Position numbers and translations under genes: made by a program. The notes under the pieces are model-generated. The model was given only the letters and a program-made list of their open reading frames with translations, did no database searches and was not told the DNA's origin. DNA of 64,000 nt, from assembly GCA_030068145.1 (NCBI GenBank), contig JAPJBO010000035.1, positions 1 through 64,000 on the forward strand. Reading direction: 5' to 3'. The stretch's first letter is position 1, and every line of letters begins with the position of its first letter. This stretch comes from Diplonema papillatum (lineage: Eukaryota > Euglenozoa > Diplonemea > Diplonemida > Diplonemidae). Positions 2,905-17,866 of the stretch are shown one piece after another.

Positions 2905-4550
2905 TCTCCCCCATCACTCACACAGGAGAGAGGGCCCTTCTTTACTCTGGTTGCAAGAGAACCAAGAACAGGGCCAGACCCTACATACAGGTTGTGGAAG
3001 TTATCAGCGACGGCAAGGAGGCAGTTGTAGAGCTACTCCAGCTGTATGGAGTAATTCCTGAAGTTGTGCGATGCACCTGTGGAGAGGTCTTAGCCAAGTG
3101 GGAGGTTCACGCTGATTCACTTGGCTGGCCGTTCTGGAAGTGTGGATGCCGGCACAAAGGAGTTTCAGGATCCATGGTGTGCAACTCTGCCATAAGCAAG
3201 CTTGATGGGAAGGAAAGCAAGAAGGGTGGCCACATGTGTGTAACTCCAACTGCTGTGCTGCTGAAAGTACATGCCTTTAGCCATGGGGTGACCAATGAAG
3301 CACTGGACAGCTTTGTAAAAGTATCATCTGCGACCCACACACGCTTCTCACGAATCCTTGCAAAAACAACCAAGGCTGCACTTGATGAAGCAGAAAAGCT
3401 TTCCCTGCCCCTGGGGGGCCCGGAACACTTTGTTGAACTTGATGAGTTCTCTATCGGACTCAAGAAGCGAGGTGAGGGTGAAAACCAGCAGGTTTGCTAC
3501 CAGAGATTCCTGGGAATCGTTGAGCGGGGGTCATCCCTGTTTGTTCTCCGTGAGTTGCCTGAACGTTGGCAAAATCTTATGAACCCTGGGGAAGAGGTTG
3601 ATCTCCCGTCAGGTGGAGGGAAATGCAAGAACACAAGCACCAAGAAGTGTGTCCCGCCCCCTCCCCCTATCTCTATAGTAGAGCTAGACGCTGTCCTTGC
3701 CGAAGAGGTTATCCAGCTTGGAACAGACAACAAGCCGGTTTTCATTACTACAGATGGGGCTGGAACGTACCGCAGCCGACTTGACCCCACCTCTTCCAAC
3801 TTCTATTGGGGTGAAGAAAAGAAAGGGAATGTACGATATGGATGGGTCAACCACGGCCGCGAGGAGTTCACAGGGCTCCGGACAGCGTGGAAGTTGGTGG
3901 ATACAGTCACCGAGTTTAAAGAGCTGTCAGTTGAGAGTGAAGAGCGGATCCTTGCCTCAATCCATGGTGGGGCAATTGACGGTCTCAGCTCAGCAGAGCT
4001 TGTGCACCTCAGAAAAAATTACAGTGAACAGCAATGGCTTGCTGGCACACAGAAGGGAGACGGCACATGGGGTCATCTCAAGAGATTGATCAAGATGAAG
4101 GGAGCAAGGACTGCAACAAAAGTTGCTGAACTGTATGTAGCCCAGTGGAAGCTGCACCACGGGGGCAAAGATAAGCTCCATTTTACTTTACTGGCCTTTG
4201 GAGATGCTTTGCGGTTGGTGTACAGCGAGATCTTCAACCAAGGGGAACCCAGGGTTGTGGCATTGCAACAGCAGGTGGAGTCGTTGCAGTTGGCTTTAAA
4301 GCTCTTGCAGGAAGCTGATGCAAGCAGATCCATCTGTGCTGCAAGCAGTGCACCATCAAGCTCCCCTGGGGAAGAGCCAAAGAGGAGAAAGGTCGAAGAA
4401 GTTCCTGCAGTTGCAGCAGCAACTCATCAATGTCTCGATTGTGTTGATGATATTGATGACCTTTATGACATTGATGACATTGATGAAGACCCTGAAGCAG
4501 AACAGCCAAGTGTCCCGCTCTTTCCTATTTGTTACGACATCCTCTGGTAG
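2755..4550 (+). CDS. Merlin/IS1595-like (ISXO2-fold) transposase, intact, two exons
   Basis: The inferred product is a cut-and-paste transposase of 571 aa, from exon 1 (2755-2845) joined to exon 2 (2926-4550). The intron has an AAAAG|GTGTG donor, a CA microsatellite and a CACAG acceptor; phases match and the same junction exists in copy 1. An N-terminal zinc-ribbon-like stretch (CTCGEVLAKW, then WPFWKCGCRHKG) precedes the ISXO2-like catalytic fold: VELDEFSIG (first acid), GIVERG, ITTDGAGTYRS (second acid), VNHGREEF, then GDGTWGHLKR where IS1595 proteins have a Glu before G-x-W. The third acid would therefore be Asp. The C-terminus is acidic (DDIDDLYDIDDIDED) after a basic KRRKVEE patch that may act as a nuclear signal. 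No stop or frameshift breaks it, so it may be active. It lies inside the 935-5637 element. Confidence 0.85.
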
Positions 4551-4689
4551 TTCTGTTTTTTTCAAGCAAAAGCTCTCTTACTTTCTATTTTTTCCTGTTT
4601 TGAATTGCTACTCTCCTGTCATTTTTTCCCTCCTTCCTTCCTATTTAAATGCCATTCTACTTTAGAATGGGAGGTGTTCCTGAACACCA

Positions 4690-5637: not shown

Positions 5638-5860
5638 CCTCTGGGAGGTCCAGAGACCTTCATCGAGCTCGATGAGTTCTCGATTGGCCTCAAGAGACGG
5701 GGTGAGGGTGCAAACCAAGAGGTTTGCTACCTGAGATTTCTGGGAATTGTTGAACGAGGATCTTCCCTGTTTGTTCTCCGTGCGTTGCCTGCTCGTTGGC
5801 AAAAGCTGATGAACCCAGGAGATGTGGTTGACCTCCCATCAGGAGGGGGAAGTGCAAAGC
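5638..5860 (+). pseudogene. Transposase copy 1, middle fragment
   Basis: After the right target duplication (5638-5647) the frame continues the product interrupted at 934. It carries ELDEFSIGLKRRGEG, GIVERGSSLFVLR and VDLPSGGGSAK, matching the intact copy at 3415-3620. It stops at GSAK where array 2 begins. Confidence 0.85.
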
Positions 5861-7087
5861 GTAGAGCATTTCCATTACAAAAAACTTCGGTTAGAGTCGC
5901 AAGCCATTTTCATTGAGAAAAACTTCGGTTAGAGTCGCATAGAGCATTTCCATTACAAAAAACTTCGGTTAGAGTCGCAAGCCATTTTCATTGAGAAAAA
6001 CTTCGGTTAGAGTCGCGTAGAGCATTTCCATTACAAAAAACTTCGGTTAGAGACGCAAGCCATTTTCATTGAGAAAAACTTCGGTTAGAGTCGCATAGAG
6101 CATTTCCATTACAAAAAACTTCGGTTAGAGTCGCAAGCCATTTTCATTGAGAAAAACTTCGGTTAGAGTCGCGTAGAGCATTTCCATTACAAAAAACTTC
6201 GGTTAGAGTCGCAAGCCATTTTCATTGAGAAAAACTTCGGTTAGAGTCGCGTAGAGCATTTTCCATTACAAAAAACTTCGGTTAGAGTCGCAAGCCATTT
6301 TCATTGAGAAAAACTTCGGTTAGAGTCGCGTAGAGCATTTCCATTACAAAAAACTTCGGTTAGAGTCGCAAGCCATTTTCATTGAGAAAAACTTCGGTTA
6401 GAGTCGCGTAGAGCATTTCCATTACAAAAAACTTCGGTTAGAGTCGCAAGCCATTTTCATTGAGAAAAACTTCGGTTAGAGTCGCGTAGAGCATTTCCAT
6501 TACAAAAAACTTCGGTTAGAGTCGCAAGCCATTTTCATTGAGAAAAACTTCGGTTAGAGTCGCGTAGAGCATTTCCATTACAAAAAACTTCGGTTAGAGT
6601 CGCAAGCCATTTTCATTGAGAAAAACTTCGGTTAGAGTCGCGTAGAGCATTTCCATTACAAAAAACTTCGGTTAGAGTCGCAAGCCATTTTCATTGAGAA
6701 AAACTTCGGTTAGAGTCGCGTAGAGCATTTCCATTACAAAAAACTTCGGTTAGAGTCGCAAGCCATTTTCATTGAGAAAAACTTCGGTTAGAGTCGCATA
6801 GAGCATTTCCATTACAAAAAACTTCGGTTAGAGTCGCAAGCCATTTTCATTGAGAAAAACTTCGGTTAGAGTCGCGTAGAGCATTTCCATTACAAAAAAC
6901 TTCGGTTAGAGTCGCAAGCCATTTTCATTGAGAAAAACTTCGGTTAGAGTCGCATAGAGCATTTCCATTACAAAAAACTTCGGTTAGAGTCGCAAGCCAT
7001 TTTCATTGAGAAAAACTTCGGTTAGAGTCGCGTAGAGCATTTCCATTACAAAAAACTTCGGTTAGAGTCGCAAGCCATTTTCATTGA
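5861..7087 (+). repeat. Array 2, left arm: about 16 composite units of 78 bp
   Basis: Each 78-bp unit has two alternating monomers: AACTTCGGTTAGAGTCGCAA followed by GCCATTTTCATTGAG, and AACTTCGGTTAGAGTCGCGT followed by AGAGCATTTCCATTAC. The copies are almost identical, which suggests recent amplification or homogenisation. The inverse array lies at 7756-10337. Confidence 0.92.
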
Positions 7088-7755
7088 GTCTTTTCAGGTG
7101 GCCCCAAGTGCCGTCCCCCTTCTGTGTCCCTGCAAGCCACTTCTGCTCTCTGTACTTTGTTCTCAGGTACAGGAGTTCTGCTGAGTTAAGACCGTCGATG
7201 GCTCCACTGTGGATTGAAAGGAGAATCCTCTCCTCACTTTCAACAGACAGCTCTTGAATATCTGTCTCCTCGTCAAGGAGTTTCCAAGTCGTTCGGAGCC
7301 CTGTGAACTCTTCGCGACCGTGGTTGACCCATCCATACCGTACTTTCTCTTTGTTCTCATCACCCCAAAAGAAGTTGGATGAAGTGGGGTCAAGCCGGCT
7401 GCGGTATGTTGCAGCCCCATCTGTTGTTATGAAGACGGGCTTCTCATTTGTTCCCAGCTGGATAACATGCAGGGTCAAAACCTTGTGTCTTTTTAAAACG
7501 CTCCCGCGGGGCTGATGGAGCCCTGAAAATTTTTTTGGAAAAAAAAAAATTTGGTCAACTTCCTCAAAAATTACCGCAGAGTTTGTTCCAAATTTTTAAA
7601 ATTCAAAACACCCATTTTTTTTCCGGAAATTTTTTCTTTGCCATTTCCAAAAAGACACAAGGTTTTGACCCTGCATGATAAGAACTTCTTCGCTGAGGAT
7701 GGCATCCAGCTCTGCTATGGAGATAGGAGGGGGTGGAACACATTTCTTTGAGGTG
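7088..7755 (-). pseudogene. Transposase copy 1, catalytic fragment, inverted
   Basis: On the minus strand, reading from 7755 down, this encodes NTTSKKCVPPPPISIAELD through AILSEEV. A 212-bp MITE (7466-7677) interrupts it, and it continues with FITTDGAATYRS, VNHGREEF and GDGTWGHLKRL. It picks up where the + strand fragment at 5638-5860 stops (GSAK), matching the intact copy's order, but it lies in the opposite orientation between two inverted satellite arrays. The simplest explanation is inversion by recombination between those arrays. The C-terminal part after HLKRL is missing. Confidence 0.85.
7466..7677. mobile_element. 212-bp MITE, copy M1 (TSD ATAA)
   Basis: It begins CATGCAGGGTCAAAACC and ends with the inverse. 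The terminal inverted repeats are about 28 bp and it has no coding capacity. It is flanked by ATAA at 7462-7465 and 7678-7681, and inserted into the inverted transposase fragment. Confidence 0.88.
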
Positions 7756-10337
7756 GTGTTTGACTCTAACCGAAGTTTTTCTCAATGAAAATGGCTTGCG
7801 ACTCTAACCGAAGTTTTTTGTAATGGAAATGCTCTATGCGACTCTAACCGAAGTTTTTCTCAATGAAAATGGCTTGCGACTCTAACCGAAGTTTTTTGTA
7901 ATGGAAATGCTCTACGCGACTCTAACCGAAGTTTTTCTCAATGAAAATGGCTTGCGACTCTAACCGAAGTTTTTTGTAATGGAAATGCTCTACGCGACTC
8001 TAACCGAAGTTTTTCTCAATGAAAATGGCTTGCGACTCTAACCGAAGTTTTTTGTAATGGAAATGCTCTACGCGACTCTAACCGAAGTTTTTCTCAATGA
8101 AAATGGCTTGCGACTCTAACCGAAGTTTTTTGTAATGGAAATGCTCTATGCGACTCTAACCGAAGTTTTTCTCAATGAAAATGGCTTGCGACTCTAACCG
8201 AAGTTTTTTGTAATGGAAATGCTCTACGCGACTCTAACCGAAGTTTTTCTCAATGAAAATGGCTTGCGACTCTAACCGAAGTTTTTCTCAATGAAAATGG
8301 CTTGCGACTCTAACCGAAGTTTTTTGTAATGGAAATGCTCTACGCGACTCTAACCGAAGTTTTTCTCAATGAAAATGGCTTGCGACTCTAACCGAAGTTT
8401 TTTGTAATGGAAATGCTCTACGCGACTCTAACCGAAGTTTTTCTCAATGAAAATGGCTTGCGACTCTAACCGAAGTTTTTTGTAATGGAAATGCTCTACG
8501 CGACTCTAACCGAAGTTTTTCTCAATGAAAATGGCTTGCGACTCTAACCGAAGTTTTTTGTAATGGAAATGCTCTACGCGACTCTAACCGAAGTTTTTCT
8601 CAATGAAAATGGCTTGCGACTCTAACCGAAGTTTTTTGTAATGGAAATGCTCTACGCGACTCTAACCGAAGTTTTTCTCAATGAAAATGGCTTGCGACTC
8701 TAACCGAAGTTTTTTGTAATGGAAATGCTCTATGCGACTCTAACCGAAGTTTTTCTCAATGAAAATGGCTTGCGACTCTAACCGAAGTTTTTTGTAATGG
8801 AAATGCTCTACGCGACTCTAACCGAAGTTTTTCTCAATGAAAATGGCTTGCGACTCTAACCGAAGTTTTTTGTAATGGAAATGCTCTACGCGACTCTAAC
8901 CGAAGTTTTTCTCAATGAAAATGGCTTGCGACTCTAACCGAAGTTTTTTGTAATGGAAATGCTCTACGCGACTCTAACCGAAGTTTTTCTCAATGAAAAT
9001 GGCTTGCGACTCTAACCGAAGTTTTTTGTAATGGAAATGCTCTACGCGACTCTAACCGAAGTTTTTCTCAATGAAAATGGCTTGCGACTCTAACCGAAGT
9101 TTTTTGTAATGGAAATGCTCTACGCGACTCTAACCGAAGTTTTTCTCAATGAAAATGGCTTGCGACTCTAACCGAAGTTTTTTGTAATGGAAATGCTCTA
9201 CGCGACTCTAACCGAAGTTTTTCTCAATGAAAATGGCTTGCGACTCTAACCGAAGTTTTTTGTAATGGAAATGCTCTATGCGACTCTAACCGAAGTTTTT
9301 CTCAATGAAAATGGCTTGCGACTCTAACCGAAGTTTTTTGTAATGGAAATGCTCTACGCGACTCTAACCGAAGTTTTTCTCAATGAAAATGGCTTGCGAC
9401 TCTAACCGAAGTTTTTTGTAATGGAAATGCTCTACGCGACTCTAACCGAAGTTTTTCTCAATGAAAATGGCTTGCGACTCTAACCGAAGTTTTTTGTAAT
9501 GGAAATGCTCTACGCGACTCTAACCGAAGTTTTTCTCAATGAAAATGGCTTGCGACTCTAACCGAAGTTTTTTGTAATGGAAATGCTCTACGCGACTCTA
9601 ACCGAAGTTTTTCTCAATGAAAATGGCTTGCGACTCTAACCGAAGTTTTTTGTAATGGAAATGCTCTACGCGACTCTAACCGAAGTTTTTCTCAATGAAA
9701 ATGGCTTGCGACTCTAACCGAAGTTTTTTGTAATGGAAATGCTCTACGCGACTCTAACCGAAGTTTTTCTCAATGAAAATGGCTTGCGACTCTAACCGAA
9801 GTTTTTTGTAATGGAAATGCTCTACGCGACTCTAACCGAAGTTTTTCTCAATGAAAATGGCTTGCGACTCTAACCGAAGTTTTTTGTAATGGAAATGCTC
9901 TACGCGACTCTAACCGAAGTTTTTCTCAATGAAAATGGCTTGCGACTCTAACCGAAGTTTTTTGTAATGGAAATGCTCTACGCGACTCTAACCGAAGTTT
10001 TTCTCAATGAAAATGGCTTGCGACTCTAACCGAAGTTTTTTGTAATGGAAATGCTCTACCATGCAGGGTCAAAACCTTGTGTCTTTTTGAAAATGGCAAA
10101 AAAAAACTTCCAGAAAAAAAATGGGGTTTTTGAATTTTAAAAGTTTGGAACAAACTCTGCAGAAATTTTTGAGGAAGTTGAGCAAGATTTTTTTTTTTCC
10201 AACATTTTTTTTTGGGTTCCATCGGCTCCGCGGGAGCGTTTTAAAAAGACACAAGGTTCTGACCCTGCATGCTACGTGACTCTAACCGAAGTTTTTCTCA
10301 ATGAAAATGGCTTGCGACTCTAACCGAAGTTTTTTGC
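7756..10337 (-). repeat. Array 2, right arm: about 30 composite 78-bp units, inverse orientation
   Basis: Same two-monomer unit as 5861-7087, inverted, and about twice as long. One unit near 8270-8310 repeats the ATTTTCATTGAG monomer twice in a row. It is interrupted at 10060-10271 by a MITE and ends near GAAGTTTTTTGC at 10337. With the left arm it could form a giant fold-back around 7088-7755. Confidence 0.92.
10060..10271. mobile_element. 212-bp MITE, copy M2 (TSD CTAC)
   Basis: Same termini as M1. It lies inside a unit of array 2: the uninterrupted unit reads GCTCTACGCGAC, and CTAC is present on both sides of the insert (10056-10059 and 10272-10275). It therefore arrived after the array expanded. 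Confidence 0.9.
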
Positions 10338-10696: not shown

Positions 10697-10769
10697 TAGG
10701 CTACAGCTAAGTTTCACATGCCGGCCGACACGACTGCGTCGTTCAAACGCTGGCTGGCAGTACACATCT
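10697..10769 (-). pseudogene. Distal RNase H fragment of the older, interrupted retrotransposon
   Basis: Read on the minus strand from 10769, this gives MCTASQRLNDAVVSAGM, matching the younger element's MCMASKPLNEAIVAAL. It joins in frame to the RNase H fragment that ends at 15332 (..TTVAAVAQK). The two pieces are one gene split by the 10770-15331 element. A TGA follows soon after and the rest is lost. Confidence 0.8.
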
Positions 10770-10857
10770 TCTCGTAGTTTAACTGAGGGAATATCGATAT
10801 TGCAAGCATACCTTCACAGGTTCCCCCTCCCCGTTTACACACAACACGTCCCGTTCG
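10770..10857 (+). repeat. Split direct repeat A1
   Basis: Starts TCTCGTAGTTTAACTGAGGG and ends CGTCCCGTTC. It recurs as A2 at about 15107-15194 with two mismatches. It is the left terminus and should contain the transcription start of the full-length RNA by analogy with related elements; no promoter motif is visible. Confidence 0.9.
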
Positions 10858-11234
10858 CCCATCCTCCAAAAAATTGTGGCCACCGTATCGCTATCGATCA
10901 CGAAGGACAATTTGGCATCTGGGCGCAGTTTAACAGGGTCGTTGGAAGCGTTCAACCTGCATCTTGCCAAGATAAAGCAGGGGAAGGCATACATTTGCTG
11001 AGGCTCTGAAGACGATGTGCGTGAAGAGTCAGCACAGATCAACAAGTCGTCCTTCTATTCGTGTACTTAAGCCGCACCGACATCCCGACGTCTGCCGAGA
11101 CGCTCTCGAACAAACTGCTCACCGGCAAGGGTTATCGCTCAAAGGTGCATGAGGTTTGAAGCGCACTAAAAGGAAAGACAAAAGTAACATCGGAAACACA
11201 AGAGTTTAGCACCGAGTTTGCTGGAATATTTTCT

Positions 11235-11738
11235 ATGTCGAGTCCGGAGCCCAACTTTGCTCCATATACCCTGAGTGAGATGCACACCGCACGAGCCAGG
11301 GCAGTTTCTCCCTCCGCAACAGCTGGTCAAGGTTTACCAGCCCCGACACAAATGTCGGAACGTATGCTCCTGGATCAGGCAGAGGCGCTCGTCGGCAAGC
11401 TAGTGGTATACTCTTGTAAGAGGAAAGACGATGCCTCTGAGTGGACCAAGCATGCCGGAGTGTTAACAAAAGTGGGAGTGTCGGAGGGAGAGACCCCGTA
11501 CCGTGTGCGATTAAGTGAAGCATTCAACTACTTGCACGGGATTTCATCATTTGATGGCCCAGAAAAAGAGTTTTTGCTACCAGACCCGAATTGGTTGTAC
11601 AACAGATTAGTCGAGGCCTCTGTGCATCAGACTGAGGCGGCCCAACATGAAATGAATCTATTGCAGCAAACTATGGAAGCACGACTGGCAGGGATGGAAA
11701 GGAGATTACGATCGCAACAGGAACAAGAGAAAGGTTGA
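11235..11738 (+). CDS. Retrotransposon ORF1 (gag-like, unassigned)
   Basis: A 167-aa ORF starting at ATG 11235 (MSSPEPNFAPYTLSEMH). It has a Ser/Pro/Ala-rich start, a central region with LVGKLVVYSCKRKDDASEW, and a C-terminal helix rich in Gln, Glu and Arg (RLRSQQEQEKG) that could be a coiled coil. No known domain is recognised. Its place, first in the element, is that of gag. ORF2 begins 25 bp after its stop in another frame, so the two may be a gag split by a frameshift or two real proteins. Confidence 0.55.
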   Translation: MSSPEPNFAPYTLSEMHTARARAVSPSATAGQGLPAPTQMSERMLLDQAEALVGKLVVYSCKRKDDASEWTKHAGVLTKVGVSEGETPYRVRLSEAFNYLHGISSFDGPEKEFLLPDPNWLYNRLVEASVHQTEAAQHEMNLLQQTMEARLAGMERRLRSQQEQEKG

Positions 11739-11763
11739 TTTCGATCAAGAATCAGAGGCCCAA

Positions 11764-12234
11764 ATGAAAAGTGCCGATCATACGTGGTCTCATCCTGCTG
11801 CAGTAAAGAGTGTAGATGAGTGGAAAGAAATGTTTGAAACGCGTGGCCCAGATGGGTTGTTGTTTGCTTTGCAAGCACAATATGTAAGTGGGTTAACTGG
11901 GCTGCAAGGGGGGAAGGATTTGGAAGCTGCCTTTGATCAACTACGGCTTTGGGTAATTGGGTGTGCAATGACTTCAGGTTGGGAATCCACGGCTTTGCTG
12001 GAGTTGGGAAACGTCCTGTTGCGCAATTTGCGCGTACATCATTATCATGTACGAGACCGTATCCCACGGGGAGCACTGCTGGACAAATTGAAGTTGTCCA
12101 ACTCTTCGTCAGACGAAGTAGCGAAAGCGGCGATTGCGATTGGTAAGAAAGGAAAAGGAAAACGGCAATTCTTTTCAGCTTCTGCAAAAGGATACAAGGG
12201 ACAGGGAAACGCCAGGGCAGAGAGAAATCATTGA
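11764..12234 (+). CDS. Retrotransposon ORF2 (gag-like)
   Basis: A 156-aa ORF from ATG 11764. The first part is helical in character (WKEMFETRGPDGLLFALQAQ and a following AAFDQLRLWVIG). The C-terminus is strongly basic and Gly-rich (IGKKGKGKRQF and GYKGQGNARAERNH), fitting nucleic-acid binding by a Gag protein. No zinc knuckle is seen. The call rests on position and composition, not on a recognised family. Confidence 0.55.
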   Translation: MKSADHTWSHPAAVKSVDEWKEMFETRGPDGLLFALQAQYVSGLTGLQGGKDLEAAFDQLRLWVIGCAMTSGWESTALLELGNVLLRNLRVHHYHVRDRIPRGALLDKLKLSNSSSDEVAKAAIAIGKKGKGKRQFFSASAKGYKGQGNARAERNH

Positions 12235-12363
12235 CTGGCGTTCTTTCTGCCTTCTCCCCCGCCAGTCACGTCGATATTCATACCTCAGTTTGGCAAACAG
12301 AAGATCTGCACGGCCAAGAATCCGATTCGCTCACGAAAAGAACTTACAACACTCGGACACCAA

Positions 12364-13383
12364 ATGCGAAAAATGCAGCGCGACGCATTGCCGACAGAAT
12401 TTGGAGACTCCAACCTACAGCCTCGAAAACAGACAATGAATACCTTTGCCAAGGCTGTGCTCAAAAATCTGGCAGCAGGAATAGGGAGAAAGAGAGCTCA
12501 CACCAGAGAAGAAGGTGTTACTGCAAACGAAGCAGAAATTCTGCTCCAAGATCTGGTCTCAATTATGTGGGCTCGATCCACAACAGCCCAAAGACGCCAC
12601 CTGTGGAACAGGTTGGTAAGATGGACTTCAGCCCAGGGATTACCTCTGAACGCCGACTCAGCAGCGCTATTCGTAATGGCAACCCGTGTCAGCCCTCAAG
12701 CACAGTTGGCTTATGCGAAAGGAATATCAGCAATGTTGGGGTATTTGGGGCTCGACAATCTCCCTATTTTGAATGTAGCAAGGGCTCTCCGAGCCGTTGG
12801 GGGAAACATTCCCATTCGACAGGCATTGCCGATGGACAAGAAGGTTCTCTTGAAGTGGGCGCAAGAGCAGGACCCAGCCCTCTGTTTGGCGGCTCTATTA
12901 GCATGGAAGTCGGCGAGCAGGTGGGGAGAAGTCGCAGCTCTGGGATCGTCCCAGTTTCTACTGGTCCAGGAAGAGGAGGTGATTGTGGACTGGGGCACAA
13001 CCCCGAAAGGAAAACGGGCCAACCCTTTTTCTCCGTCACGCTGGACAGTGATAAAAGGCGACCTGACCAGAGTAATTGCGACACTTGTCCGAAGCTTAGG
13101 CAGTTTTCAAAGTCTGACCCAAGTAAGCACGGCCGAGCTAAACGCGCTTTGGAACAAGGATCCTCGAATGCGGCCGTTCTCCGGTCACAGTATCAAGCGA
13201 GGAGCTCTTTCACATCTTTTCCAACTGTTGTCTCAAGGTGTCCCTCTACAAGATTGGCTTATAGCGCGTTTAGCGAAACATCAAGGGGCATCGGGTCTTC
13301 CCGAAATGACCATAAGATATGGAGGCGATCCAATTGCGTTAGCGCGTGCCCTGAAGACTGGGGAAGTGACGCGATATTTATGA
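12364..13383 (+). CDS. Retrotransposon tyrosine recombinase (YR)
   Basis: A 339-aa tyrosine recombinase, the integrase of this element class. The N-terminal half resembles a core-binding domain (MWARSTTAQRRHLWNRLVRW; then an AYAKGISAMLGYLG region). Catalytic motifs are visible: Arg in KSASRWGEVAAL, the H-x-x-R box in FSGHSIKRGALSHL, and a C-terminal Tyr in MTIRYGGDPIALARAL. It should excise or integrate circular cDNA at short identical sequences. The stop overlaps the RT start as ATGA at 13380-13383, which suggests coupled termination and reinitiation. A frame that is open across this gene belongs to the RT only after 13380. The older copy at 16781-17746 has the same motifs. Confidence 0.9.
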   Translation: MRKMQRDALPTEFGDSNLQPRKQTMNTFAKAVLKNLAAGIGRKRAHTREEGVTANEAEILLQDLVSIMWARSTTAQRRHLWNRLVRWTSAQGLPLNADSAALFVMATRVSPQAQLAYAKGISAMLGYLGLDNLPILNVARALRAVGGNIPIRQALPMDKKVLLKWAQEQDPALCLAALLAWKSASRWGEVAALGSSQFLLVQEEEVIVDWGTTPKGKRANPFSPSRWTVIKGDLTRVIATLVRSLGSFQSLTQVSTAELNALWNKDPRMRPFSGHSIKRGALSHLFQLLSQGVPLQDWLIARLAKHQGASGLPEMTIRYGGDPIALARALKTGEVTRYL

Positions 13384-15023
13384 GTTCACACAACAAGCAT
13401 ACTCTGACCCGGCGTGCCCATTGTTCCAGAATCCCGGCAACAGATGAAGAAAGAAACGCTCCACTGCACGCTACAAAGGTGCAACCTTTACAGGTTGAGA
13501 AGCTGAAGCTAAGAATGAGGAAATGCGTACGGGAACGTTTTGATCTCGTTTGGAATGCAACTTTTAATCCCCCGTCTTCTCAATCGTTACCAATGAGAGG
13601 TATCCGTTCTTCATTCAGTGCTGCTCATGCAGAACAATTGGTGAAGTGTGATATTGCTGCTCCTGCAACGGGACCAGGAACCTTGATGTCTGTACCTTTC
13701 ACGGTGTTGGAAGAGAAGCCCTCGGGCTTGAGACAGAGGTTTATATTATGGACACGTGAAGCAAATGAAAACTTGAGGGCTTCATACAAAGCTCAGGTGC
13801 CGTTAGAACATGTTTCTAAGTACATACATGTAGTATCGAACGAGTGTGCATCCCTGAGGGACTTACGGTGTGGATTCTATCAGGTAGAAATACCTGAGGG
13901 TTCGCGGAAGCATTTTCGATACACCGACGATAAAGGCAGATGGTTCGAACTAACCCGGTTGCCTATGGGACACAGTTGTGCTCCAGAACTTATGCACACC
14001 CTGACATCAACCATTGGAGGGCACCCGGACTATGTCAAGGAGGAATACAGGGCCCAAGACGTGACTGTCCATACCTGGATAGACAATATTCGTCTAACGG
14101 GGAGCGAAAGGTCGGTAAAGGCAGAAACAGCCCGTCTGGACAAGACGGCGCAGGGAGCCGGTGTGACTTGGAAACCGGAGGACAGCGAGGATGCAGCCTC
14201 CGTGTATGATTTTATCGGGGTAAGTTTTGACCACACAAAAGGTGAAGTTTCGCCTTCAAAAAGACTCTTGTCAAAGTTAGAGAGCGTGCAGTTTGATAAA
14301 GTAACTGCCGGAGAGTTGGAGTCTTTTGGAGGCCGACTCATGCACGCAAGCGCCGTATCAGGGGTACTACTTGGTCGGTTTTGGTTTGCGATTAAGTTCT
14401 TGCGGCGAGTCATTAACAGCCTCAACTCCGGGAAAAGAAGCGCTTCCTCTCTTGTAAGTATCCCTCCTTCCGTTCAAAAGGAGTTAAAAGTTTGGCGTGC
14501 TGCTGTTGGAAAACCGCTCAAAGTACAAAATATCCTTCCATGCACCCCATTTGATGTTTTTGTTGATGCTTCACTGCGAGGATGGGGCATGGTTGCAATC
14601 GACAACACTACTAAGGAAGTAATCGTCGCAGGCAATTCATGGACTGATGCTGAATCCTTGTTGCACATCAACATTCTAGAAGCGTTGGCGTTCCGCAACG
14701 CAATATTTGCTCTGCCTCCCGCTTTTCTGAGTAATAACGTTCATTTTAAAGTCGATAACACGACTGTAGCATCCGCAGCAAGGAAGGGTATGTGCATGGC
14801 CTCAAAACCCTTAAATGAGGCTATTGTAGCAGCTTTGTCAAGACTGCGTGAAGTGGGGGCCACCTTCACAATTGCTTGGGTGCGCTCTGCGTCGAATATT
14901 GCGGATTTACCTTCCCGCATGTCGCCCCAGCTGCTTTCTTCCAGGAATGGAAAGAGGGTAGTTGAACAAGCGTTGCGGAAGTTTTTTACACGCGATGGGG
15001 TTCGTTCTCGTTCGGAAGGTTAG
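13380..15023 (+). CDS. Retrotransposon reverse transcriptase/RNase H
   Basis: A 547-aa protein starting at the ATG that overlaps the recombinase stop. RT motifs: DLRCGFYQVEIP (motif A Asp), LPMGHSCAPELMH (motif B) and HTWIDNIRL (motif C). Motif C has Asp-Asn in place of the usual Asp-Asp; the older copy has the same, so it is a lineage trait and not a lesion. RNase H motifs follow: FVDASLRGWG, INILEALAF, KVDNTTVAS and SNIADLPSRM, giving the full D-E-D-D set. No DIRS-type methyltransferase domain is present. The last 25 bp lie inside repeat B1. Confidence 0.92.
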   Translation: MSSHNKHTLTRRAHCSRIPATDEERNAPLHATKVQPLQVEKLKLRMRKCVRERFDLVWNATFNPPSSQSLPMRGIRSSFSAAHAEQLVKCDIAAPATGPGTLMSVPFTVLEEKPSGLRQRFILWTREANENLRASYKAQVPLEHVSKYIHVVSNECASLRDLRCGFYQVEIPEGSRKHFRYTDDKGRWFELTRLPMGHSCAPELMHTLTSTIGGHPDYVKEEYRAQDVTVHTWIDNIRLTGSERSVKAETARLDKTAQGAGVTWKPEDSEDAASVYDFIGVSFDHTKGEVSPSKRLLSKLESVQFDKVTAGELESFGGRLMHASAVSGVLLGRFWFAIKFLRRVINSLNSGKRSASSLVSIPPSVQKELKVWRAAVGKPLKVQNILPCTPFDVFVDASLRGWGMVAIDNTTKEVIVAGNSWTDAESLLHINILEALAFRNAIFALPPAFLSNNVHFKVDNTTVASAARKGMCMASKPLNEAIVAALSRLREVGATFTIAWVRSASNIADLPSRMSPQLLSSRNGKRVVEQALRKFFTRDGVRSRSEG

Positions 15024-15110
15024 GTTCATCCTGCCCGGCCGAGACGATTTCCCCTTCGCTTCTTTACTGCGCGTCCCCTTTCCGTTCACATGCATGCAAG
15101 ATGGAATTCT
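14999..15110 (+). repeat. Split direct repeat B1
   Basis: A 112-bp repeat starting GGTTCGTTCTCGTTCGG and ending GATGGAATTCT, identical to B2 (15220-15331). Its end abuts A2, recreating the junction expected when the two element ends are joined in a circle. Confidence 0.9.
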
Positions 15111-15194
15111 CGTAGTTTAACTGAGGGAATTCCGATATTGCAAGCATACCTTCACAGGTTCCCCCTCCCCGTTTACACACAACACGTCCCGTTC
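15107..15194 (+). repeat. Split direct repeat A2
   Basis: Internal copy of A1 directly following B1. A 25-bp pyrimidine-rich stretch (15195-15219) separates it from B2. Confidence 0.9.
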
Positions 15195-15219
15195 TTCTTT
15201 TTCCCTCCCTCCCCACCCT

Positions 15220-15331
15220 GGTTCGTTCTCGTTCGGAAGGTTAGGTTCATCCTGCCCGGCCGAGACGATTTCCCCTTCGCTTCTTTACTGCGCGTCCCCT
15301 TTCCGTTCACATGCATGCAAGATGGAATTCT
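15220..15331 (+). repeat. Split direct repeat B2 (right terminus)
   Basis: Identical to B1. The older element's RNase H sequence resumes at 15332 on the minus strand, fixing the right end. Confidence 0.9.
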
Positions 15332-16784
15332 TCTGTGCAACTGCGGCCACCGTTGTGTTGTCCACACGGACATCGACGCTTCCGACCCCGCTTTGCGGCA
15401 ACACGGCTATGGCTCGCTCAAAAGCCAAGGCCTCGAGCTTGTTTATGTGCAGGGCACCTTCGGATTTAGTCCAGGACCCACCGAAGACGTGCATCTCACC
15501 AGTCTCGCGCGAAACAATCACGGCACCCCAGCCCTTCAACGAGGCATCCACAAAAATAAGAAACGAAGGTCCATCGGACTCAGAGGGAGGCAGGGAGGGA
15601 GAAAGAACACGTGCCTTGTGAACCGAACGAATCCAATCTTTCAATTCAGAGGCTGCACAGCGGGGCACTTGAACTTTGTCAGCCGGTGTCCGCGAACATC
15701 GATTCAGCGAGTTCGTGACCCGCCGCAGAAACTTCAACGCCCACCAAAAGGAACCGGGAAACACTCCAGAGATTGAGCTTGCGTGAAGCAGCCGTCCCCC
15801 TAGAGACTCCAGTTCTCCAGCCGTGATGCAAGACAAGTCGGCCTTGTCAAGCTTCCCGAGCAGCTTCTCTGACGGGGCGACCGTGTTGGCGCCGTGATCG
15901 AAGTCGACTCCGATGAAGTCGTATCGACATACCCCGTCGTTGCTGTCTGCTTCTTTCCATGAGGCATTTGCCTCCTTCGCCAAACAATCCATTTTCATTG
16001 TGTGGGCGGCGATCTCACGGGCGGAACCGTACAACCGGATGTTGTCAATCCAGGCATGTACACCCACGTTCTTTGCCGCGTGCTCTGGAGCAACAAAGGC
16101 CGGATCCGCGGCCAATACCGATGTCAGCGTGTGCATGATCTCTGGTGCACAGCTGTGGCCCATTGGCAACCGATTCATTTCGTACCAGGTCCCCGAGTCG
16201 TCTACGAAACGAAAATGCTTTCTTGACTCGGGTGGGATCTCTACCTGATAGAAACCTGTCCGCAGGTCGCGGGTTGTCGCACACTCGCCGAGCACCGCGT
16301 CGAGGTATTCTGACACGTGCCCCAGTGGGACATAGGCTTCATAGCCCTCACTCTTTAGAGCAGACTTAGCTTCCTGGGTCCACAAAATAAAACGCTGTCG
16401 CATTCCTGTCGGCTTGACAGTGAACGGGACAGTTTCCAAGGTTCCTGGGGCTTGCGCTACTGAAGCAATACCGTTCTCGACGAGGGTTCGCGCGTGCGAC
16501 CCTTGGAACATAGAGCATCGGGGTGTCTCTTTTTGACGCACGTTTTCTTCTTTTTTCAAGCAGGTTTTTGGTTGGAAGGTGGTGTTCCACACGGACTCAA
16601 AACGATCGCGGACGCTTTTCCGCATCCGGTTCTTCAAGAAATCAACACGCATGGGTGTAATGCTAGCAACGTGTAGCGGTGATTCCCGTTCCTCTGCCGT
16701 TCGAGGCAGGCGGGTCGCATGAGAGCGCCGTGTGATTGTATGGCGAGTTTTGAGAGGAGAGGGAGAGGCAGGAGGAGGAATCAC
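15332..16784 (-). pseudogene. Older YR retrotransposon: RT/RNase H, interrupted
   Basis: The minus-strand reading is open from 16784 to 15332 with DLRTGFYQVEIP, LPMGHSCAPEIMH, HAWIDNIRL, FVDASLKGWG and DVRVDNTTVAA. It stops inside RNase H where the younger element is inserted; the continuation is at 10769-10697. The junction with the upstream recombinase is GTGA (GTG at 16784, recombinase TGA at 16783-16781), where the younger copy has ATGA. It is clearly homologous to, but diverged from, the younger copy, so it is a separate lineage and not its duplicate. Confidence 0.88.
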
Positions 16785-17746
16785 AAGAGGGCCGTCGCGT
16801 GGGCTGTTCCCAACGCTTCGGCCATTGCTACCGAATCGCTTCCGTAACGGAGCGTCATGTCGGGAATCCCACTCCCTTGGCCTTCTTTGTGTTTCGCGAG
16901 CCGTCCAATCAACTCTAGAGGCAACCTGGCCCCTTGCTCTACCGCCTTGAAAAGGTGTGTTGTGGCTCCCCGCTTGATGCTGTGACCTGTAAAGCCGCGC
17001 ATCTGGGGGTCTTTCTGCCACAAAAGTGCTAATTCTGCGGTTGTTACGGGACAGAGTTGATGGAACGGCTGCAGTGTTTGGAATAGGGAGGCGATCTCGG
17101 ATGTCAAATCCCCAACCACCACAGCCCACCTTGAACGAGTGAACGGGTTGGATCTTCGCGACTTCGGAACTGAGGCCCAGTCTAAGACCACTTTTGAGTT
17201 TGTCACTTTCAAGAACTGGTGTGATCCTAACTGGGTCACTTCCCCCCAACGACTTGCGGTTTTCCACGCAAGAAGGGCCGCCAGCTGCAGCTCGGGTACT
17301 TGACGGCGTGCCCAAGCCACCAACTTTAATTTGGTTACCGGCCGGGCCTGGTGCACAGGAATGGCTCCCCCGACCGCTCTTAGTGCCCCCGCAAGACTGT
17401 GCAGGGACTGGGCAGGCATGCCGATATGCCGGAATGTCCCCGCTAATGCTTTTGCTTTTGCATAGGCGAGCTGTCCTTGCCGGCTGACCTTTGTAGCCAA
17501 TACAAACAGAGCCGCCGAATCCGCGGTCAACTGCAATTTGTTTGCGGCTGTCCATCGGACTAACCAGGCCCACAAATACTGGCGCTGGGTCGAAGTGGAC
17601 CTGGCCCACATTCGACTCACCAGCGATTCCAACTCTCCCCAGGCTTCCTCTGCTGGAACCACTGCTTCGTTGTTCACAAAAAACAAAAGAGTCGAGGGAC
17701 GAGGAAACCTTTCGGTGTTTAGTATGTACACTAAAACAAGGATCAA
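16781..17746 (-). CDS. Older YR retrotransposon: tyrosine recombinase (5'-truncated element)
   Basis: About 300 aa match the younger recombinase: MWARSTSTQRQYLWAWLVRW, KTASRWGEVTQL (Arg), FTGHSIKRGATTHL (H-x-x-R) and MTLRYGSDSVAMAEAL (Tyr). The catalytic set looks intact. No in-frame ATG precedes the conserved part; the first codons shown by the open frame (TTG at 17746) are not a credible start. Upstream of about 17755 the gag region is gone, so the element is 5'-truncated. Confidence 0.8.
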   Translation of the reverse strand: MILVLVYILNTERFPRPSTLLFFVNNEAVVPAEEAWGELESLVSRMWARSTSTQRQYLWAWLVRWTAANKLQLTADSAALFVLATKVSRQGQLAYAKAKALAGTFRHIGMPAQSLHSLAGALRAVGGAIPVHQARPVTKLKLVAWARRQVPELQLAALLAWKTASRWGEVTQLGSHQFLKVTNSKVVLDWASVPKSRRSNPFTRSRWAVVVGDLTSEIASLFQTLQPFHQLCPVTTAELALLWQKDPQMRGFTGHSIKRGATTHLFKAVEQGARLPLELIGRLAKHKEGQGSGIPDMTLRYGSDSVAMAEALGTAHATALL

Positions 17747-17866
17747 TCATCTCTGCTCTCGGTCGCTATTTATTCCCGCAGCGAGCCTGAGAGTAAAATT
17801 GGGTTCTTGCCCACTGCCAGTGAAAAAAACTTCTCAGTGTGAGAGAAAAAAAAAAAGCACAACTAA

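Follow-up and report, generated by a model that had tools for sequence, protein, structure and literature searches.

A VIPER-like retrotransposon in the diplonemid Diplonema papillatum and a proposed cycle for its replication

How split direct repeats work in retrotransposons that encode a tyrosine recombinase (YR) is so far known from models. The question is taken up here for an element in Diplonema papillatum, a marine diplonemid flagellate and thus a member of the sister group of the kinetoplastids. The stretch analysed here (the window) consists of the first 64,000 nucleotides (nt) of contig JAPJBO010000035.1 of assembly GCA_030068145.1, in which an earlier sequence-only reading had seen a complete, recently active element resembling VIPER and Ngaro. 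What is this element, and do its copies record how it replicates? We conclude that it is very probably a VIPER-like (DIRS-order) retrotransposon of a diplonemid, and we propose a cycle for it. The cycle as a whole we regard as possible, at slightly less than an even chance: host trans-spliced mRNA would serve as genomic RNA and lose the first 48 nt of repeat A1, which B1-A2 would restore via strand transfer at A2; Gag-Pol would be made by a -1 frameshift through an open reading frame (ORF) that contains the YR; and a YR-less family would parasitise the recombinase in trans.

Structure and insertion site

Repeat comparison gave the order A1...B1-A2-B2, as the sequence-only reading had described: A1 (10769-10856) and A2 (15107-15194) agree over 88 nt at 98% (two mismatches), and B1 (14999-15110) and B2 (15220-15331) are 100% identical over 112 nt. 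These exact repeats are too long for chance. Both A1/A2 mismatches are private to the A1 of the window, the A1 of loci L037-L041 being equal to A2 over 91-93 nt. (Labels in C denote contigs of the D. papillatum genome, the window being on C35, and labels in L extracted loci; the window element belongs to family 1 of five.) The layout is not confined to the window and was found again in further copies and families. The full arrangement is seen in the window copy and also in family 2 (C52) and family 5 (C1522); an additional A-B unit is present in family 3 (C9), and in family 4 B1-A2-B2 is seen in L032 and A1 in a separate copy, L060.

The element lies in the RNase H gene of an older, opposite-strand relative of family 4. 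When 90 nt from each flank were joined at 10771/15331 and compared with the uninterrupted locus L032, 138 of 180 letters aligned with 3 mismatches and no gaps, while each of six alternative cuts, shifted by 1-3 nt, added gaps. This empty site and other copies moved the element's ends to 10772 and 15330. In C1275 the tandem repeat that forms the target continues exactly across the insertion; a 22-nt repeat flanking this copy was considered as a target duplication and rejected, as it belongs to that tandem repeat. No target site duplication was found at the exact empty site or, by eye, at nine insertion sites. Left ends vary in their first few nt (TCGT) among insertions, and the right end is a constant GGAATTC in the 16 intact right ends seen, with C as the next base in 12 of them. 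Such ends would fit a crossover made by a recombinase at a short TTC-like core.

Genes of the element

The YR precedes the reverse transcriptase (RT)/RNase H, as had been noted earlier, and in the window the two ORFs overlap as ATGA (Table 1). Neither a Pfam scan of the YR (no match) nor a sequence search of the Protein Data Bank (PDB) with the YR profile (nothing useful) was informative. The conserved residues of the ORF are presumably catalytic, and the predicted fold supports its identity: in a Foldseek search of PDB, ranks 1-30 were all tyrosine recombinases, with Cre at the top (E 2.8e-4), 4 of 178 matches having E <= 0.001 and unrelated folds appearing from rank 31. The fold search was limited to the first of two YR models, an AlphaFold2 model; confidence is low in both (mean pLDDT 55.7 and 56.6). 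The motif HSIKRG stands in four of five aligned YRs and HSVKRG in the fifth, HxxR being the usual YR motif. Pfam matches to the RT ORF are weak (RVT_1, E 0.059; RT_RNaseH, E 0.0081), and in PDB its profile matched an enzymatic polyprotein (8r0s, E 0.0026) and the Ty3 RT (4ol8, E 0.054). No methyltransferase was matched in Pfam at E <= 1 among the proteins scanned, the RT ORF included.

The sequence-only reading had taken two gag-like ORFs as the element's design. A single gag ORF of 335 amino acids (aa) is present in four of nine family-1 5' regions (C1125, C310, C94 and C84), and gag is likewise one ORF in families 2, 3 and 4 (336, 357 and 330 aa; range with family 1, 330-357 aa). We therefore read the window's gag as a broken gene and reject two genuine gag genes. 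It is interrupted or incomplete in the other five 5' regions (the window copy, L036, and L037, L040, L047 and L048). The element is thus complete in its anatomy but not in its coding. By eye, no CH-box was seen in the gag of family 2.

Copies and families

The search for further full copies that the sequence-only reading had called for covered 271,365,524 bases in 2910 contigs. It listed 83 places with RT matches, and the counts are lower bounds, since 79 of 3003 candidates were scored. At least 18 RT copies are full length (all 547 residues) at >=99% identity, and 17 of these 18 are stop-free; at least 18 more are near-full at 78-79%, at least 8 stand at 58% and at least 11 at 54%, the others being fragments or more distant. 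Nine of the 18, including the window copy and picked for break-free alignment, differ by 0-3 nt over 3230 nt (36 pairs), which supports recent activity of family 1. The claim of recent activity is supported for the family; the window copy, judged by its sequence, is recent yet unable to make a normal Gag.

Family 5 has a different plan. At L058 (C1522), A1 (556-745) and A2 (4216-4405) are identical over 190/190 positions, as are B1 (4026-4215) and B2 (4423-4612), and a single ORF fuses a gag-like part with RT/RNase H. By tblastn no YR was found at L058 or L057 (C13), the two loci tested. Among the matches listed, at least 12 full-length rows at 88-100% and at least 14 of a 75% subfamily belong to this family, all 26 stop-free, beside partial rows; the repeats were compared at L058, and the YR was sought at L058 and L057. 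Use of the YR of families 1-2 in trans would be plausible, because the B/A junction of C1522, AATTC/TTGCAGTTTACTGAGGG (a slash marks the joint), resembles theirs.

Families 1-4 share the gag-YR-RT order with L061, whose RT and YR are 38% and 39% identical. This locus is filed under a bacterial metagenome-assembled genome (MAG; ErkenSummer, read as a lake), and we take it as a eukaryotic contaminant. It was the one relative that scans for elements outside this genome gave; viral contigs, and genome contigs scanned with the RT profile, yielded none. Another element with YR and RT/RNase H, a distant one (L066, on contig C631 of this MAG; RT 25% identity), is probably eukaryotic contamination as well.

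An RT frame kept open through the recombinase gene

The YR lies in the gag frame right after the gag stop, and the RT frame is -1 to it. In families 1-4 no stop interrupts the RT frame between a point ahead of the gag stop and the end of RNase H. Stops in this frame were counted after shuffling synonymous YR codons: across the YR, families 1-4 have 0 stops each against 11.5, 9.5, 6.3 and 6.1 expected (P <5e-5, <5e-5, 4.5e-4 and 7.5e-4), and L061 has 0 against 8.2 (P 1e-4). The third frame is not depleted in these families, with 25, 25, 19 and 21 stops against 22.2, 22.5, 13.7 and 15.5 expected.

The heptamer GGGAAAC stands at the same distance from the gag stop (28 nt) and in the same phase in all four families, and a stem of 12-16 base pairs (bp) begins 3-5 nt after it in each. 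On a four-row alignment, 5 of the 11 pairs of this stem (S1) show compensatory change and 90.9% of cells are paired. A possible pseudoknot helix (S2) has 9, 8 and 6 pairs in families 1, 2 and 3. Slid versions of S1+S2 all pair less (at most 56.3% vs 82.5%), and we regard the covariation support, drawn from four sequences, as moderate. GGGAAAC and the stem in four families predict a -1 frameshift from gag into the RT frame, and a conserved frameshift signal would explain why the YR and RT ORFs overlap so widely.

Spliced leaders and truncated 5' ends

Two copies carry a spliced leader (SL) within or before repeat A, joined at the corresponding AG in two families. In C1275, A runs to position 70 (from 10769), followed by 38/39 nt of intron-less SL and then by A from the AG acceptor (TTCACAG/GTTCCCC); leader+GTTCCCC occurs once in the whole genome. 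The equivalent pattern of family 2 also occurs once, in C1379, a copy that begins with the leader at CCCACAG/GTTACC. At position 1 both captured leaders (L045 and L067) differ from the SL genes in L034 and L035, showing T instead of A; the T is perhaps a misread modified cap nucleotide.

In four truncated copies of family 1, A runs directly into the interior of the element: C749 at 12579, C1489 at 12207, C397 near 14711 and C1091 at 14899. Past the part common to A1 and A2, the A2-B2 spacer continues for 15 nt in C1489, 4 nt in C749 and 3 nt in C397. Family-2 copies on C701 join B1-A2-spacer-B2 (33 nt) to an internal point. We infer from these joints that truncated copies could record strand transfer onto the A2 region. 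The start of the A2-B2 spacer is the landing point of three such apparent template jumps. In the spacer itself (15203-15219), four C-runs form a G-quadruplex pattern on the opposite strand, which is similar in families 1-4 and roughly so in family 5. C1850 and family-3 C9 carry tandem A-spacer-B units, which recall the SIRE unit of Trypanosoma cruzi in the cited part of PMC6681497.

Proposed replication cycle

In the cycle that we propose, host read-through RNA would be trans-spliced, the SL replacing the element's first 48 nt at the AG in A1; the predicted RNA junctions are ...TTATTG/GTTCCCCCTCC or TTATTG/GTTACCTTACC. SL-joined RNA would be the usual template, the junction itself being seen in two DNA copies. 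Translation would yield Gag; where ribosomes slip by -1 at GGGAAAC, upstream of the stem, it would continue into RT/RNase H through the entire YR gene, read in the other frame. RT would then copy the RNA to a 5' end that lacks the start of A, and synthesis would shift to A2, which together with the adjoining end of B would supply the new 5' end, as the truncated copies of A2 type suggest. The product would circularise with a GGAATTC/TCGTAG junction, and the YR would recombine the circle into short TTC-like sites with no target duplication.

Discussion

In the cited passages VIPER and TATE have the order gag-YR-RT/RNase H, split direct repeats and YR and RT ORFs that overlap, and they lack a target duplication and a methyltransferase (PMC6681497, PMC12278014, PMC4157794); the element described here agrees with them in each of these features that we tested. 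VIPER of T. cruzi and other kinetoplastids shares the gag-like-YR-RT/RNase H order, the A1...B1-A2-B2 repeats, the YR/RT overlap and the lack of target duplication. It is also close in size, T. cruzi alignments having 338 aa for YR and 948 aa for RT/RNase H (per the cited part of PMC6681497) vs 339 aa and a 958-codon frame here. VIPER differs in having a kinetoplastid host rather than a diplonemid one, and the element described here in its shorter repeats and the family-2 gag without a CH-box; the cited VIPER descriptions mention neither a frameshift signal nor SL capture nor a sister family that lacks the YR. TATE, also from kinetoplastids, has the same gene order and repeat plan, and the TATE copies of Bodo that have a single fused ORF bring to mind family 5, in which gag and RT are fused; however, the telomere-repeat targeting of TATE (cited passages of PMC6681497) is not apparent in the 14-nt flanks of nine sites here. 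Those passages describe VIPER-like elements from kinetoplastids only, and the Diplonema genome paper, in the part consulted, mentions TATE-like ORFs without detail and counts them among DNA transposons. Among the open-access literature matches listed, there were no VIPER-like elements in diplonemids, no frameshift signal in the group and no SL capture.

Could a rearrangement of the gene order instead have produced this element from one of Ngaro or PAT type? Ngaro, PAT and this element all combine split direct repeats with YR and RT/RNase H. In Ngaro, however, the YR follows the RT, whereas here it precedes it, so that of the earlier label VIPER/Ngaro-like the first half stands and the second is weaker. 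Families 1-4 all keep the YR-before-RT order and the RT frame open through the YR, and so does L061 at 38-39% identity, which makes the order old in the group; the sister relationship of diplonemids to kinetoplastids also speaks for VIPER. Split direct repeats themselves are common to PAT, Ngaro and VIPER in the cited passages (PMC4157794, PMC6681497), but the methyltransferase of PAT and DIRS (for PAT, the cited part of PMC4157794) has no Pfam match in the RT ORF. We hold a rearranged Ngaro- or PAT-like origin to be very unlikely. DIRS1 is likewise a YR retrotransposon with extensive ORF overlap, but its terminal repeats are inverted and it contains an internal complementary region, whereas the terminal repeats here are direct and the repeat comparison found no inverted pair joining the element's two ends. 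As to the expression of RT, re-initiation at ATGA after the YR would do without a frameshift, and in the window family the RT ATG does overlap the YR stop. ATGA occurs in family 1 only among five elements compared, though, and re-initiation needs no stop-free RT frame through the YR, which is stop-free in 5/5; with GGGAAAC and the stem in all four diplonemid families, re-initiation appears improbable. The A2-type 5' ends and SL copies might also stem from DNA recombination or misassembly instead of reverse transcription. Rearranged copies exist, such as the inverted pair L017/L018 on the short contig C2788, the assembly paper reports, in the part cited, artificially duplicated or collapsed repeats (PMC10161547), and the short A2-type stretches of C749 and C397 leave room for recombination. 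Yet an intron-less SL is joined exactly at AG in two families on two contigs, and a crossover of A1 with A2 would remove the body and cannot explain why A is joined to four different internal points. We consider this explanation unlikely as well.

It should be noted that several observations weigh against a VIPER-like element replicating as proposed. The class was assigned by anatomy against published descriptions, and the element is known from genomic DNA. Motif C of the RT (residues 233-236) is W-I-D-N in five of seven aligned RTs and W-V-D-N in two (T-D-N in L066), with Asn in place of the second Asp of most RTs. For the frameshift signal, a search for S2 in family 4 found none, shuffles reached the five measures of S1+S2 in 44, 60, 75, 250 and 38 of 500 cases, the stem z-scores are -1.0, -2.93, -1.42 and -3.95, and L061 lacks GGGAAAC, carrying GGGGGGA and GGGGGGC. 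C1379 begins at the SL with no A start, ends early in RT and has no poly(A) run, and may have entered by another route. Since the SL is present in 1 of 17 family-1 5' ends seen (L037 and L038 sharing one flank, and L046, which has no A start, being left out), RNA with the SL may serve as a template only now and then. The A2 assignment of C749 depends on 4 nt and that of C397 on 3 nt, and C1091 is compatible with either A. The window's older family-4 copy has no gag and an A1-type 5' end joined directly to the YR, and was rejected as an A2-type case. Breaks of other shapes also occur, with internal deletions in L004 and L010 and an inversion in L017/L018.

If the proposed cycle is true, genomic fossils disclose the replication route of YR retrotransposons with split direct repeats. 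The many-copied diplonemid families suggest that VIPER-like elements predate the split between diplonemids and kinetoplastids, and existing reads can be used to test the strand-transfer step by way of the SL-capture copies and the A2-type 5' ends.

Features of the window

Table 1. Coordinates of the element, its parts and its host locus in the window.
Feature	Position	Strand	Remarks
VIPER-like element, family 1	10772-15330	+	4559 bp, TCGTAG...GGAATTC; ends from L032 empty site and other insertions
Repeat A1	10772-10856	+	differs from A2 by 2 private mismatches
AG used as trans-splice acceptor in A1	10818-10819	+	TTCACAG/GTTCCCC; SL joined exactly here in C1275
Gag-like region, broken in window copy	11235-12234	+	ORFs 11235-11738 and 11764-12234
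Pol (RT) reading frame	12147-15023	+	958 codons, stop-free, spans whole YR gene
Predicted slippery heptamer GGGAAAC	12204-12210	+	gag phase G_GGA_AAC, 28 nt before gag stop
Predicted frameshift stem S1	12216-12226/12241-12251	+	11 pairs
Possible pseudoknot helix S2	12232-12240/12260-12268	+	pairing in families 1-3
Tyrosine recombinase (YR)	12364-13383	+	339 aa; conserved R186, H275-S-I-K278-R279, H306, Y319
Reverse transcriptase/RNase H	13380-15023	+	547 aa; motif C WIDN; RNase H D396, E434, D459, D509
Repeat B1	14999-15109	+	repeat comparison
Repeat A2	15110-15199	+	B1/A2 = GGAATTC/TCGTAG, sequence predicted for circle junction
A2-B2 spacer, C-run-rich	15200-15219	+	by eye; similar C-rich spacer in all five families
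Repeat B2	15220-15330	+	repeat comparison
Older family-4 relative, invaded by element	15331-17790	-	5' limit approximate; ~48 nt left at 10724-10771

An insert of ~212 nt in A1 of C1963 and C394 was not counted with the retrotransposon, being an inverted-repeat element that also lies at 10057-10274 of the window. In C1963, C394 and C1850 (L047, L048 and L064) this ~210-nt element (CATGCAGGGTCA...) is found at one and the same point of repeat A, following GTTTAC. Among 46 U2 small nuclear RNA genes listed, 27 lie in one contig, mostly ~1240 bases apart; U2 is linked to 5S rRNA in L033 and to the spliced leader in L034 and L035, the linkage being pairwise only. A U2-5S-SL unit is reported from D. 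papillatum and apparently absent in other diplonemids, according to the cited part of PMC10161547.

Elsewhere in the window, a 518-aa ORF (2994-4550) gave only a sub-threshold, unrelated Pfam match; from its motifs we take it to resemble a Merlin/IS1595-type DDE transposase. Merlin elements are reported from Discoba and kinetoplastids (PMC8101967). A 78-bp satellite forms two opposite arrays, at 5859-7088 and 7762-10059, of ~16 and ~29 copies with 98% matches.

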